The notes beneath the pieces are model-generated. The model worked only from the letters and a program-made list of their open reading frames with translations, had not been told where the DNA came from and searched no databases. Source: Sphingomonadaceae bacterium (lineage in GTDB: Bacteria > Pseudomonadota > Alphaproteobacteria > Sphingomonadales > Sphingomonadaceae). Taken from it: DNA of 55,742 nucleotides. Each line of letters begins with the position of its first letter. Position 1 is the first letter of the stretch. Below are positions 19,526-23,787 of this stretch, in pieces. The position numbers and the translations under genes are program-made. The stretch lies in NCBI GenBank assembly GCA_020630295.1, contig JAHDBR010000011.1, positions 1-55,742 on the forward strand. Direction: 5' to 3'.

Positions 19526-20065
19526 GTGAATATTTTGCGCGCCGTTTCTGTTTTGCCTCTTCTTGCACTGGCCTGCTGCACGCCTGCCGTGCCTACCGCA
19601 GATCCTACGCCGCCGCCGCCGGTAAACACGGCTCCGCCTGCACCCCCACCCGCACTTGCAGCGCCGCAATATGATAATTGGCTGGATGCCCCGCAAACCG
19701 CAGGCGACTGGACGTATCGCGATGGAAACGCGCTTAGCTTCGCCACTTTCGCGCAAGCAGGTTCTGCCGCACGGTTTGGCATTGAATGCGCAAAATCCAC
19801 GCAGACCGTCCGTCTGGTTCGCGGAGCCAATGCAAACGGACAGGTGCCTATGCGTATCCGCACGGAAACTGCATCGCGTCTGCTGACTGCAACGCCTTCA
19901 CCGGATGGACGCCCTATTCTGGCGGCTGAACTCTCTGCACGTGATAGCCTGCTTGACGCAATCGCGCTCAGCCGGGGCCGGTTTGCCGTCGAAACAGGCG
20001 GGCTTGATACGTTGTACCTGCCCGCATGGAGCGAAGTTACCCGCGTGATCGAGGATTGCCGCTAA
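19526..20065 (+). CDS. Probable lipoprotein, unknown function
   Basis: 179 residues, GTG start with CGGAG 5 bases ahead. The signal peptide has a hydrophobic core (VLPLLALACC) that ends in a cysteine pair compatible with a lipobox, followed by a Pro/Ala/Thr-rich linker (residues about 22-46). The mature domain holds two Cys (ECAKST and a terminal EDCR) that may form a disulfide. No family recognised. It stands alone on the plus strand between two minus-strand operons. Confidence 0.75.
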   Translation: MNILRAVSVLPLLALACCTPAVPTADPTPPPPVNTAPPAPPPALAAPQYDNWLDAPQTAGDWTYRDGNALSFATFAQAGSAARFGIECAKSTQTVRLVRGANANGQVPMRIRTETASRLLTATPSPDGRPILAAELSARDSLLDAIALSRGRFAVETGGLDTLYLPAWSEVTRVIEDCR

Positions 20066-20083
20066 CCGGCGCTCATCCGAACA

Positions 20084-20830
20084 TTAGCCGTCAAATTCAT
20101 CGCCGGTCAGCATTTCGTTGCGGAAAAACACGCCGAGCGAACTGGTCCAGGCAGACAGCGCGTCGTCAATTTGCGCACCATCGACATGGATGACCACAGT
20201 TTCCTTTTGATAGGAAAGCGACATGGAAAACCCGGACCGGAACAGCGACTGATTCAGCACAACGCTTGCCTGATCCGAACCGCCTTCAAATTTCACGGCG
20301 CACGGATTGTCTTTCGAAACCGCGAAACCCTGACCGAAAGTCTCGCCGTCAACCGATACGGCCAACATTGTCTCGGCAATTTTCTGGCCGATATCCTTTG
20401 CTGACAATTCGGCGCTGGTGATGAATTTGATGATGCGGGACAGACGCACGGCCAATTCTTCGTCAAAATCCCCGGAGCCTCTGATAACGTCGCACCAGTT
20501 GGTGTAATTATCGAGCTGCGAAAATTCGCCGGATACATAATACCGCAGCGCATTCAGGATAGGGTAGATTTCCTGCTTATGCTTGCCCTCAACATCCAGC
20601 GTCACATTCTTGATGATGCGGCGCGAGGCATGGCTCATCAGAATCACGTTCGTGACCAGAAATAGCGCGCTCAACCGTTCGACCTGCACTCCGACACATT
20701 GCGGGTTCTGGACAATCAGTGCCAGCTTGCCAAAGGAGGACAAATCCTTGCCGCCCATAAAGCTGGCGAGCCGTCCGGATTCGGACTCTTCAAATAGTGG
20801 CACATCCACCAGAGTATCGACTTCACTCAT
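20084..20830 (-). CDS. Unrecognised soluble protein, last gene of the TyrA-PheA-2TM operon
   Basis: 248 residues from ATG 20830, overlapping the upstream gene by 8 bases (ATGAGTGA). It has no signal peptide or transmembrane helix. A mixed alpha/beta composition is seen, with a helix-rich middle (EIYPILNALRYYVSGEFSQL, LSRIIKFITSAEL) and a beta-rich C-terminal third (FSMSLSYQKETVVIHVDGAQI). One hydrophobic stretch (LSALFLVTNVILM) looks like a buried core helix. I recognise no family. The overlap implies that it is translated with the 2TM protein and works with it, perhaps as a soluble regulator or effector. Confidence 0.75.
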   Translation of the reverse strand: MSEVDTLVDVPLFEESESGRLASFMGGKDLSSFGKLALIVQNPQCVGVQVERLSALFLVTNVILMSHASRRIIKNVTLDVEGKHKQEIYPILNALRYYVSGEFSQLDNYTNWCDVIRGSGDFDEELAVRLSRIIKFITSAELSAKDIGQKIAETMLAVSVDGETFGQGFAVSKDNPCAVKFEGGSDQASVVLNQSLFRSGFSMSLSYQKETVVIHVDGAQIDDALSAWTSSLGVFFRNEMLTGDEFDG

Positions 20831-21464
20831 TTCTACCGCTTTCTTCCTGCGACCACAGCGCATATTTATCGAAAAATTCTTTCGGCCTTGCCGCGAACAT
20901 GACGCCGCTGGACACTTCCGGCCCTGTGCCCTTGTCAACGACCGACGACCAATCGCCTTGCAATGTATCAAGTTCCTGCAGTTCTAACCGCAACCGGCCA
21001 TACCGCCTGAAACTGCCCGAATTCAGTTTGACGTTATATAGCACGTGGACCGCTTTCTTATCGGGATCGTAATTTAGCGCTGTGCTGTAAGCGCGACCAC
21101 GCGAATTAACTGCCGCGACCATCGCATCCGCATCCGGATACAGCGTCACTTCGTAACAGAGCATCCCGTCCTTATTGAAGTGAAAGCGCATCCGCGCAAA
21201 ATTCTCGTCCTTGAACTGCGAATTTGAAATGGTGACATAGTACCACGCACCCAGAACACGGCGATAATAAAACCGCCGCAGCGCTCTCTCCGATAACAAA
21301 AAGCATCCGTAAAGAGCCGGAATGCTGAATAGAGCATAGAGTGCCTTCTCAGCGGAGCTGGCGCTTTGGATATAGGGTTCGACATAGACGGCCAGCAGCG
21401 ATGCTGCCGCAGCGAGTACCGTGGCAGAAAGCGCCTGAATTTGGGATCGCTGAAGGTCGAACAT
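20823..21464 (-). CDS. 2TM plus beta-strand-rich membrane protein (Cap15/S-2TMbeta-like layout)
   Basis: 213 residues. Two hydrophobic helices lie at about 10-31 (ALSATVLAAAASLLAVYVEP) and 39-60 (KALYALFSIPALYGCFLLSE), then a basic juxtamembrane patch (RALRRFYYRR). The remaining 145 residues are a beta-rich domain that opens with VLGAWYYV and contains alternating strands (MRFHFNKDGMLCYEVTLY, YGRLRLELQEL) and a late LQGDWSSVVD. Two N-terminal helices followed by a beta barrel opening with G-x-W is the layout of the SMODS-associated 2TM-beta (Cap15) effectors of CBASS, but no CD-NTase lies nearby and the match is by eye. The start is 7 bases after the prephenate dehydratase stop. Confidence 0.7.
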   Translation of the reverse strand: MFDLQRSQIQALSATVLAAAASLLAVYVEPYIQSASSAEKALYALFSIPALYGCFLLSERALRRFYYRRVLGAWYYVTISNSQFKDENFARMRFHFNKDGMLCYEVTLYPDADAMVAAVNSRGRAYSTALNYDPDKKAVHVLYNVKLNSGSFRRYGRLRLELQELDTLQGDWSSVVDKGTGPEVSSGVMFAARPKEFFDKYALWSQEESGRNE

Positions 21465-21470
21465 TCCAGC

Positions 21471-22328
21471 TTAAGGTTCCAAAAAGCCGTCGCAGGTCTT
21501 GCGCCGCGGATCGGACTGGTAAGCGCCCAGTAATTTAAGCGACGAGATGTGGTCCTTAATGCCTTCCATTGCAGCAGCGAACCGGTCATCATCTGTGCTG
21601 CACGCCAGCTCTATATAGAAAGTCGGCAAGCCCATTTTGGAGATTGTCGTAAAGGTTTCCAGCTTGATCATATTGATATCCGCATCGCCAAATGCGCTCA
21701 GCGCCTTGGCCAAAGCGTTAGCATCGTGGTTCACCTGAATGACGATCGAAGTCATATTCACCGGCCCCTGATCGGGCAGTTCCTTGGTGACCAATACAAA
21801 ACGCGTATTGTTGTCCGCACGGTTGGAAATTCCGGCCTGCAATACGCTGGCGGAATAGCGGTCCGCAGCAAATTCCGATCCGATCGCAGCCACTGTGCGA
21901 TCACCCTTTTTGATCATGTCGCGCACAGCACTGGCCGTATCGCTTTTCGGTTCCTGTTCAACATCAGGAAGATATTGCGCCAGAAAACGGGATGACTGGA
22001 TAAAACCCTGCGGGTGACTGTACACAGTCAGGATTTCGTCCCGGCTGGCGCCTTTTACGCCCACCAGCATATGGTCGATATCCTGCAAATATTCCTGCAC
22101 GATAAACAGCTCTGTAGAGACAATCAGCGGTAGAATGCTGGGGATCGGGCCAGAGCTTGAATTTTCGAACGGCAGTATGGCCGCATCGATATCGCCCGCG
22201 ACCACCGCGTCCACCAATTGCTGGAACGATTTGAAGCCCTTATAATCAGCATCAGGGCAAAGCGCCGTTGCCGCCTGATGCGAATAGGAGCCCACTACGC
22301 CCAAATGGCCAACCGAATTATAGGTCAT
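21471..22328 (-). CDS. pheA: Prephenate dehydratase, divergent regulatory domain
   Basis: 285 residues, PDT domain plus ACT domain with no chorismate mutase. The catalytic domain has GVVGSYSHQAATAL, LPFENSSSGPIPSIL, DIDHMLVG, VYSHPQGFIQSSRF, DTASAVRDM, and the Thr of NNTRFVLV. It converts prephenate to phenylpyruvate in phenylalanine synthesis. The ACT domain (from about residue 195) lacks the clear GAL and ESRP motifs that bind phenylalanine; their place is taken by ALAKALSAFGDADINMIKLETF. Feedback control may therefore be altered. Start overlaps the dehydrogenase stop (ATGA). Confidence 0.9.
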   Translation of the reverse strand: MTYNSVGHLGVVGSYSHQAATALCPDADYKGFKSFQQLVDAVVAGDIDAAILPFENSSSGPIPSILPLIVSTELFIVQEYLQDIDHMLVGVKGASRDEILTVYSHPQGFIQSSRFLAQYLPDVEQEPKSDTASAVRDMIKKGDRTVAAIGSEFAADRYSASVLQAGISNRADNNTRFVLVTKELPDQGPVNMTSIVIQVNHDANALAKALSAFGDADINMIKLETFTTISKMGLPTFYIELACSTDDDRFAAAMEGIKDHISSLKLLGAYQSDPRRKTCDGFLEP

Positions 22329-23230
22329 ATCTCGTCCAATCCCGCCCGTGTTTTATAGTCACTTATATGCGATAGTTCTTGCAGCAAATCGGTTTCGCTT
22401 TCCTCCGCCGCGATTTTCTGGAGCCGCTGGAGATTTCCGATAAATGCCTCCAGCCAACCTGCCAGCGCATCGTTACCGCGAAACACGTCGGTCCACATTT
22501 GTCCGTTTTCACTGGCAAATTTAGCCATCGTCTTGGTCGATCTACTTGCCAGCTTAGCCATCTCTGCATCGTCCAAACCGCTGTCCTGAGCCAGCGTCGA
22601 GGTATAGGCGTAAGCGATAAGATGCGGCAGATGCGACGTGAGCGATAACATCTGGTCATGCCGGTCAGCCGCCATCTCGAGAACTTGAAATCCCAACCTC
22701 TCCAAGAACAATTCAGCCCGCCGGTAATTCTCTTGCGGTAGCGCGCCATGCGGGGACAGAATGAAAGTCGCGCCGCGTAATTTGTGTGCCCCGGCATCAG
22801 ACGGGCCAAGCCGGTTGCCGCCAGCCAAAGGATGTCCGCCAACATAGCGTGCGGTATCTGCGCCGCTTCCCAGAACGTCAGCCATAATTGCGCGTTTGGT
22901 CGACGCCGTATCAATAATCAATGCCGCGCTATCTTGCTGGTTGAGCAATTCGATAAGGATCGGCGCGGTCACGCCAGGGGGCGTACACACCAGCACCAGA
23001 TCACAGGCAGCCAAGTAATCCAGTTTGGCGCACGGCTCAGCGCGGGAGAACCGTTCGGCAACCACTTTGCTGTGGACCGGATTGGCCTCCACAAAGCGGA
23101 CCTGCGCATCGTCAATTTCAGACAGGACGAGATCAATAATGCTGGTACCCAACAGACCTGCGCCGACAACCCCGATCAACGGGCTGCCGGCATCTCCGGA
23201 GTGCAGCAAAATGTCACGTTCTGGCGTCAT
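22325..23230 (-). CDS. tyrA: Prephenate dehydrogenase
   Basis: 301 residues. The N-terminal nucleotide-binding fold carries GVVGAGLLGTSI. VLVCTPPGVTAP, IIDTASTKRAIM, and the substrate region YVGGHPLAGGNRLGP follow, then the helical dimer domain with ADRHDQMLSLTSHLPHLIAYA. It oxidises prephenate (or arogenate) to the tyrosine precursor; the exact substrate cannot be read here. ATG 23230 has AGGA at 6-9 bases. It is the first gene of a tightly linked operon with prephenate dehydratase, the 2TM protein and the unrecognised protein. Confidence 0.9.
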   Translation of the reverse strand: MTPERDILLHSGDAGSPLIGVVGAGLLGTSIIDLVLSEIDDAQVRFVEANPVHSKVVAERFSRAEPCAKLDYLAACDLVLVCTPPGVTAPILIELLNQQDSAALIIDTASTKRAIMADVLGSGADTARYVGGHPLAGGNRLGPSDAGAHKLRGATFILSPHGALPQENYRRAELFLERLGFQVLEMAADRHDQMLSLTSHLPHLIAYAYTSTLAQDSGLDDAEMAKLASRSTKTMAKFASENGQMWTDVFRGNDALAGWLEAFIGNLQRLQKIAAEESETDLLQELSHISDYKTRAGLDEI

Positions 23231-23277
23231 GCCGGTCCTGTTCTACACGCGTACTTAAGTCCGCTTTACAGTATGAA

Positions 23278-23292
23278 GGTGGCAAAACCACC
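23278..23292 (-). repeat. Short hairpin upstream of tyrA
   Basis: GGTGG-CAAAA-CCACC forms a small perfect stem in the leader region about 50 bases upstream of the tyrA start. It may be a regulatory site or leader hairpin. The rest of 23231-23549 holds no gene I can support. Confidence 0.3.
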
Positions 23293-23549
23293 CCGTTCAC
23301 ATTGCTCACTTTGCGGCTAGCAGCTTTCCCGACAACATAGAAAAATTGGTCTGCCACCGATAATAGCTGTGTAGCTCCTGATCTACTCAAGTCTTCCAGC
23401 CCGTATTCCACGCGCAAGATAAAGCGATGTGGGAAAAGCAAAAATCAGGGCTTGCAATTAAAATCAAACAGACTCAAATTGGACGCAAGATCAGCGGCGA
23501 ACGCGGTCTTGGGCCTCCGGTGAAACGCGGGCTCTGGCTTTCAAGCGCG

Positions 23550-23563
23550 AAAGGAGGTGATCC
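23550..23563 (+). promoter_or_regulatory. Fourteen-base extended Shine-Dalgarno
   Basis: AAAGGAGGTGATCC is perfectly complementary to the conserved 3' end of bacterial 16S rRNA (GGATCACCTCCTTT). GGAGG sits 7 bases ahead of the ATG at 23565. Such a full-length match is far beyond what normal genes in this window use (usually 4-6 bases), so it probably serves a special role. Confidence 0.8.
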
Positions 23564-23564
23564 G

Positions 23565-23621
23565 ATGTCTCATGGTTCAGTAAGAGGGTCGGTAAAGTTC
23601 CACACAAGGCATTATTGGTGA
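23565..23621 (+). CDS. 18-codon mini-gene / leader peptide
   Basis: ATG at 23565, stop at 23619-23621. The peptide is MSHGSVRGSVKFHTRHYW, basic and ending in aromatic residues. It is preceded by the 14-base Shine-Dalgarno and followed within 90 bases by a strong terminator hairpin. The codons for Tyr-Trp and the first base of the stop lie in one arm of a perfect 8-bp hairpin (TTATTGGT 23612-23619 with ACCAATAA 23630-23637). This looks like a leader-peptide attenuator or a small dual-function RNA. It is not rich in Leu, Ile or Val, so classical ilv attenuation of the downstream ilvE is doubtful. Confidence 0.6.
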   Translation: MSHGSVRGSVKFHTRHYW

Positions 23622-23667
23622 GCATTTGAACCAATAAAGGCATTTGTGAGCGGCACTTTCGGCCGCT
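23612..23667 (+). promoter_or_regulatory. Two tandem hairpins after the mini-ORF
   Basis: Hairpin 1 pairs TTATTGGT (23612-23619) with ACCAATAA (23630-23637) and would melt when a ribosome reaches the Tyr-Trp codons. Hairpin 2 pairs AGCGGC (23649-23654) with GCCGCT (23662-23667). Both precede the terminator stem, as in attenuation leaders. Confidence 0.55.
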
Positions 23668-23676
23668 GACCATGTT

Positions 23677-23711
23677 AAGGGCGGTACCTCCTACGTGCGA
23701 GGGCCGCCCTT
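23677..23711 (+). terminator. Terminator hairpin with anti-Shine-Dalgarno loop
   Basis: AAGGGCGG (23677-23684) pairs perfectly with CCGCCCTT (23704-23711), with an inner CCTC/GAGG stem (23687-23690 with 23699-23702). It is followed by a moderately T-rich run (CTCATTTGGCCTTTTC). The loop side carries ACCTCCT, complementary to the AGGAGGT core of the mini-gene's own Shine-Dalgarno. Confidence 0.65.
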
Positions 23712-23787
23712 CTCATTTGGCCTTTTCATTTGCCTCTTTCATTCGACCCTTCACTTTAGCTGAGTGCATAGGCGAAAATTAAACACC

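Follow-up and report, generated by a model that had tools for sequence, protein, structure and literature searches.

Why would two enzymes of the aromatic amino-acid pathway be encoded, with no gap between genes, alongside a small membrane protein and a soluble protein that belongs to no family? The question was raised by a four-gene operon in a Sphingomonadaceae bacterium (assembly GCA_020630295.1, contig JAHDBR010000011.1), in a stretch of DNA of 55,742 nucleotides, the whole of which is called the window here. The original prediction had offered two answers: a joint role for the four genes, for example a membrane sensor responding to a prephenate-derived compound, or an orphan Cap15-like effector with a partner of its own.

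Layout of the operon

The four genes are packed on the minus strand from 23230 down to 20084, beginning with a TyrA-like dehydrogenase of 301 residues (22325-23230), followed by a PheA-like prephenate dehydratase of 285 residues with an ACT domain (21471-22328), a 213-residue membrane protein with two predicted transmembrane helices (2TM; 20823-21464) and a soluble protein of 248 residues, gene 4 (20084-20830). The tyrA and pheA genes overlap by 4 bases (ATGA), 6 bases separate pheA from the 2TM gene, and the latter overlaps gene 4 by 8 bases; for gene 4 the ATG start was adopted, and not the longer TTG reading frame of the mechanical listing. Coordinates and spacing were correct as originally given, as was the recognition of two aromatic-pathway enzymes, for which Pfam gave matches to PDT (2e-49), PDH_N (1.6e-18) and PDH_C (4.3e-15). 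The other two proteins had been called unrecognised, and they indeed returned nothing convincing from Pfam, NCBIfam, PADLOC or PHROGs and nothing useful from a sequence search of the PDB. The AF2 model of gene 4 had no usable fold (pLDDT 36), and the protein is known from a homologue at the equivalent place in the metagenome-assembled genome (MAG) PL24a_bin.80.

Insertion of the cassette and loss of the native genes

Five congeners (L070-L074) have an empty site, at which the flanking genes tlyA, a short lipoprotein-like gene and ilvE are adjacent. In blastn comparisons the homology of the window to congeners ended at 20064 and restarted at 23426 (L071, L073 and L074), and where the congeners have about 36 bp the window has an insertion of 3361 bp (3.36 kb; 20065-23425). 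Because homology breaks at these two points, the inserted unit comprises just the four genes and a leader of about 195 bp (23231-23425, minus strand), which would hold the promoter. No consensus promoter was found in the leader, and neither a leader peptide nor an Rfam element was found for the cassette. The insertion showed no transposase, transposon ends or flanking repeats, and its GC content is slightly below that of its surroundings (0.52-0.55 versus 0.56-0.59). Contamination was rejected as an explanation: the sequence to either side of the insertion, on the one contig, matches the congeners.

The region beyond the leader (23426-23719) is 75-78% conserved among congeners, and upstream of ilvE, at 23542-23710 on the plus strand, the Caulobacter sRNA CC2171 (RF01867) is matched over its full length, with a score of 37 bits that lies under the curated threshold; similar matches of 33-47 bits occupy the equivalent place in all five congeners examined. 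A genuine RNA linked to ilvE therefore probably exists outside Caulobacter.

The genome that carries the cassette is 99.85% complete and has one PDT match and one PDH_N match, both inside the cassette; two congeners carry these domains elsewhere, not at the cassette site. The place of the native tyrA is seen in genome G002, in the order metX-hisC-tyrA-acyltransferase, and in the window's genome hisC is followed directly by the acyltransferase gene. The native pheA of G002 lies between a cytochrome c gene (cytC) and a gene that we take to be DUF4129, and the window's genome is without pheA between these neighbours. There, the contigs that hold the two neighbours overlap by exactly 55 bp, and because of this shared stretch nothing can be placed between them. 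The possibility that a gap between contigs hides the native pheA was rejected on the same ground, the contigs being abutting, with a k-mer branch to another strain still conceivable. Native tyrA and pheA are absent at their usual loci and each domain is found once in the genome; therefore, the cassette genes are the only TyrA and PheA found in it.

A membrane protein with a predicted effector-like fold

The AF2 model of the 213-residue protein (three sequences; pLDDT 78.7, pTM 0.67) has predicted helices at residues 2-27 and 37-66, eight strands from 72 to 192 and a C-terminal helix; a simple hydropathy cut-off gave one transmembrane helix in the window's protein and two in its homologue from Iodidimonas. 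The motif GxWxYVT (G72, W74, Y76-T78), which opens the barrel, and a second motif, RYGRL (154-158), do not vary among the three homologues. When the model was compared with the PDB by Foldseek, Cap15 ranked first (7n34, E 1.6e-4) and its other entry, 7n35, seventh, with lipocalins, nitrobindins, avidins and designed barrels between and after them, and the TM-scores to Cap15 were modest (0.33 by query, 0.56 by target). Among the BFVD viral models the top match was a "SMODS-associating 2TM beta-strand rich effector", which aligned over the full length with an E of 3.3e-7, the next match having one of 2.3e-3. The layout of Cap15 and other S-2TM-beta effectors of bacterial cell suicide, originally read from the letters of the gene, is in keeping with this predicted fold. 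By sequence the outcome was the opposite, as the Cap15 model PF18153 did not match the protein in Pfam at E<=1, and by that sequence model it is not placed in the Cap15 family; a PF18153 search of its own genome was without a match, and the controls were silent too. From its modelled structure, the protein looks like, and probably works like, an S-2TM-beta protein.

Recurrence of a rare cassette

Homologues of the 2TM-beta protein were sought in 61 relatives and in partly overlapping sets of genomes from the order (401), the class (385) and the phylum (399), and two were found. Scanning 84,980 species genomes gave these two and no others, in Iodidimonas muriae JCM 17843 and in MAG Alphaproteobacteria PL24a_bin.80, although the scan rested on two peptide patterns only and more carriers may exist. 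The cassette is very rare, being present in three genomes, the window's included, among more than 1,000 searched. Plasmid and viral-contig searches with the 2TM-beta protein and gene 4 were unproductive, and the plasmid and phage matches to PDT and PDH, all below 60% identity, were uninformative.

In the MAG, the order is tyrA-pheA-aminotransferase-2TM-beta-gene 4, the aminotransferase being an aromatic one of class I/II that we read as TyrB/AspC type. Identities to the window's proteins are 30% for TyrA, 39% for PheA, 32% for 2TM-beta and 25% for gene 4 (E 6e-16), and the last two genes overlap by 11 bases. In I. muriae, pheA and the 2TM-beta gene are 5 to 6 bases apart, and tyrA and gene 4 are not beside them; its genome gave no PDH_N match. 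That linkage has been kept in two other genomes at 24-40% protein identity is more than chance would lead one to expect. A lineage-conserved Sphingomonadales operon was rejected, with homologues in only two of the 401 genomes of the order: the cassette is a sporadic, horizontally moved unit, and because of this the two unknown genes are not kept across Sphingomonadales. The expectation of a conserved four-gene order in that group consequently failed, while the association itself held in a distant MAG, where the unknown genes again stand beside tyrA-pheA.

Two observations concern the neighbours of the cassettes. In the MAG, an N-terminal remnant of an AspC-type aminotransferase (L015:4770-5336) adjoins the cassette beside gene 4, and the Iodidimonas cassette also adjoins an intact aspC-like gene, possibly a preferred insertion neighbourhood. 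Iodidimonas muriae in addition encodes (L019:4997-7078; G058 contig 4) a 693-residue protein in which chorismate mutase, prephenate dehydratase, an ACT domain and DAHP synthase are fused, so that phenylalanine synthesis has its first and its last enzyme on a single chain.

The MAG contains a second TyrA-PheA pair of the cassette type (L044:2236-11145; G564 contig 11). It comes right after a gene for a DUF4062-NACHT-WD40 protein of 1143 residues, with a 1-base overlap, the DUF4062 and NACHT matches being under the Pfam cut-offs, and the contig ends shortly past the second pheA. The NACHT-WD40 gene is in turn preceded by one for an 821-residue protein with five predicted transmembrane segments, whose N-terminus we take for a SLOG domain (it had no HMM match). 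Proteins of the NACHT-WD40 type are characteristic of conflict systems in bacteria. Enzymes of the cassette breed stand beside effector-like genes twice in this one genome, and the run of 5-TM, NACHT-WD40, TyrA and PheA genes is possibly a separate conflict system that uses the same breed of enzymes.

These contexts bear on an explanation that involves no defence role at all, namely that the cassette is an acquired and separately regulated Phe/Tyr operon in which the 2TM-beta protein and gene 4 would handle aromatic keto acids as a membrane anchor, a sensor or an exporter. The aminotransferase of the MAG cassette would complete the Phe/Tyr branch, lipocalin-type barrels bind small molecules, and the cassette now serves primary metabolism in the window's genome. 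However, such an operon would account poorly for the full-length predicted likeness to S-2TM-beta effectors, the extreme rarity of the cassette and the related TyrA-PheA pair adjoining a NACHT-WD40 gene, and we consider it a serious rival, though a rather unlikely one.

Diverged enzymes

The cassette TyrA has PDH_N and PDH_C domains and keeps the GHP, SHLPH and S-T-K motifs, and the cassette PheA has a PDT domain with the TRF motif and also keeps ENS and SHPQ. Nonetheless, both score far under the NCBIfam cut-offs for housekeeping enzymes, at 123.8 versus 409 bits (PRK07502) and 193.9 versus 359 bits (PRK11899). In a tree of 12 PDTs the PheAs of the window and the MAG cassette, together with the second MAG copy, split from the housekeeping forms with a bootstrap of 97; the Iodidimonas PDT, on a long branch, was placed elsewhere.

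The PheA data help to weigh the view that the 2TM-beta protein and gene 4 act together as an orphan pair, with tyrA and pheA as passengers that chanced to replace the native genes. The overlaps between the two genes, 8 bases in the window and 11 in the MAG, would suit such a pair, but PheA accompanies the 2TM-beta protein at all three loci, one of them without gene 4, and the window and MAG cassette PheAs form a clade of their own. It is very unlikely in our estimation. For the two original answers this means that the joint unit with the enzymes has fared better, and the orphan effector with a partner of its own is the less probable of the two because pheA was kept at 3/3 loci and gene 4 at 2/3.

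The substrate-binding arginine of TyrA, at a column set by alignment to the A. aeolicus TyrA and which, from the motif of the E. coli enzyme, we take to be Arg294, is not kept: the window has Lys and the two MAG copies have Ala and Val, so that it is lost in 3/3 cassette-type TyrAs and kept in 6/6 of the others aligned. This residue (Arg294 in E. coli, Arg297 in H. influenzae) is described as critical to the binding of substrate, and as conserved in the TyrA of all kingdoms (PMC2954222). Because it is lost, we infer that the substrate of the cassette TyrA may have changed.

A changed substrate would favour a CBASS-like activating messenger, an unusual aromatic signal that altered TyrA and PheA would make on infection and that would open the 2TM-beta effector, in the way that ligand binding opens Cap15 (PMC12657218). 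Against this, the enzymes are the cell's only copies and should work constantly; if a product of normal metabolism activated the effector, the cell would die. An activating signal is, for these reasons, unlikely.

A metabolite-gated switch?

The replacement of the native enzymes, taken with the predicted effector-like fold, suggests that an amino-acid metabolite, and not a nucleotide, may run a defence or addiction switch. Our preferred reading, held tentatively and as no more than quite possible, is that of a horizontally moved conflict or addiction cassette whose metabolite-gated 2TM-beta effector is held off by the product of the enzymes, as in Panoptes, where a ligand produced at all times silences the 2TM-beta protein OptE (PMC12657230, PMC12657218). 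The effector would oligomerise and its membrane helices would damage the inner membrane, while its barrel would bind a small ligand, perhaps an aromatic keto acid, amino acid or derivative, that TyrA and PheA (in the MAG also the TyrB-type aminotransferase) would make, or make the precursor of, from prephenate. Sensing of a prephenate-derived compound, as first proposed, would be retained in this scheme. The ligand would most likely hold the effector off, inhibition being the more coherent polarity because its makers are the sole Phe/Tyr enzymes of the cell and are expected to be always on. If the ligand then fell, because a phage took over the cell or the cassette was lost, the effector would be released, with gene 4 as a putative cytosolic adaptor or sensor. 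Such a cassette would be addictive, which would fit the later loss of the native tyrA and pheA.

The 2TM-beta effectors with known gating in the papers cited respond to cyclic nucleotides (PMC12657230, PMC12657218). That this one answers instead to an aromatic metabolite from captured Phe/Tyr enzymes, in an immune or addiction switch that has made itself essential by displacing the host tyrA and pheA, is possible but somewhat doubtful. Several points weigh against a gated conflict cassette: there are three 2TM-beta loci only, gene 4 and TyrA are absent from that of Iodidimonas, the likeness to Cap15 is modest and unmatched by its HMM, with lipocalin and avidin barrels close behind, and the lost arginine makes the substrate of TyrA uncertain. 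If TyrA were impaired, tyrosine may come from another route, and the argument that the enzymes are always on would be weaker.

If the metabolite-gated switch is real, immune signalling would reach into central metabolism through an effector linked with enzymes of amino-acid synthesis, and a defence or addiction unit could make itself indispensable simply by displacing essential biosynthetic genes of the host. Among the papers of the library searched, none was found to connect prephenate enzymes with phage defence or conflict systems.

Comparison with known systems

The effector type is known; its partnership with prephenate enzymes is not, as far as the searched literature goes. Like Cap15, the S-2TM-beta effector of CBASS (PF18153; 7n34/7n35), the 213-residue protein has two predicted N-terminal transmembrane helices and a predicted eight-stranded barrel; unlike Cap15, it is without a PF18153 match, has about 13% identity and is partnered by TyrA and PheA. 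CBASS is defined by a CD-NTase, and profile matches showed none among the four operon genes (PDH, PDT, 2TM-beta and an unmatched gene), as the original prediction had noted. The enzymes are of the same families as the housekeeping alphaproteobacterial ones (PRK07502, PRK11899), share most of their catalytic motifs and stand in for the native copies, yet they fall far below the equivalog cut-offs, with PheA in a separate clade and the arginine of TyrA lost. The comparison with Panoptes (OptS/mCpol plus OptE/2TM-beta) has the same two sides. None of the four genes matches an mCpol or Cas10-like cyclase, the enzymes here being of the aromatic amino-acid pathway and inhibition being proposed by analogy, but both are small operons that couple a putative ligand-making enzyme to an S-2TM-beta-like protein, and the two would share an inhibitory logic.
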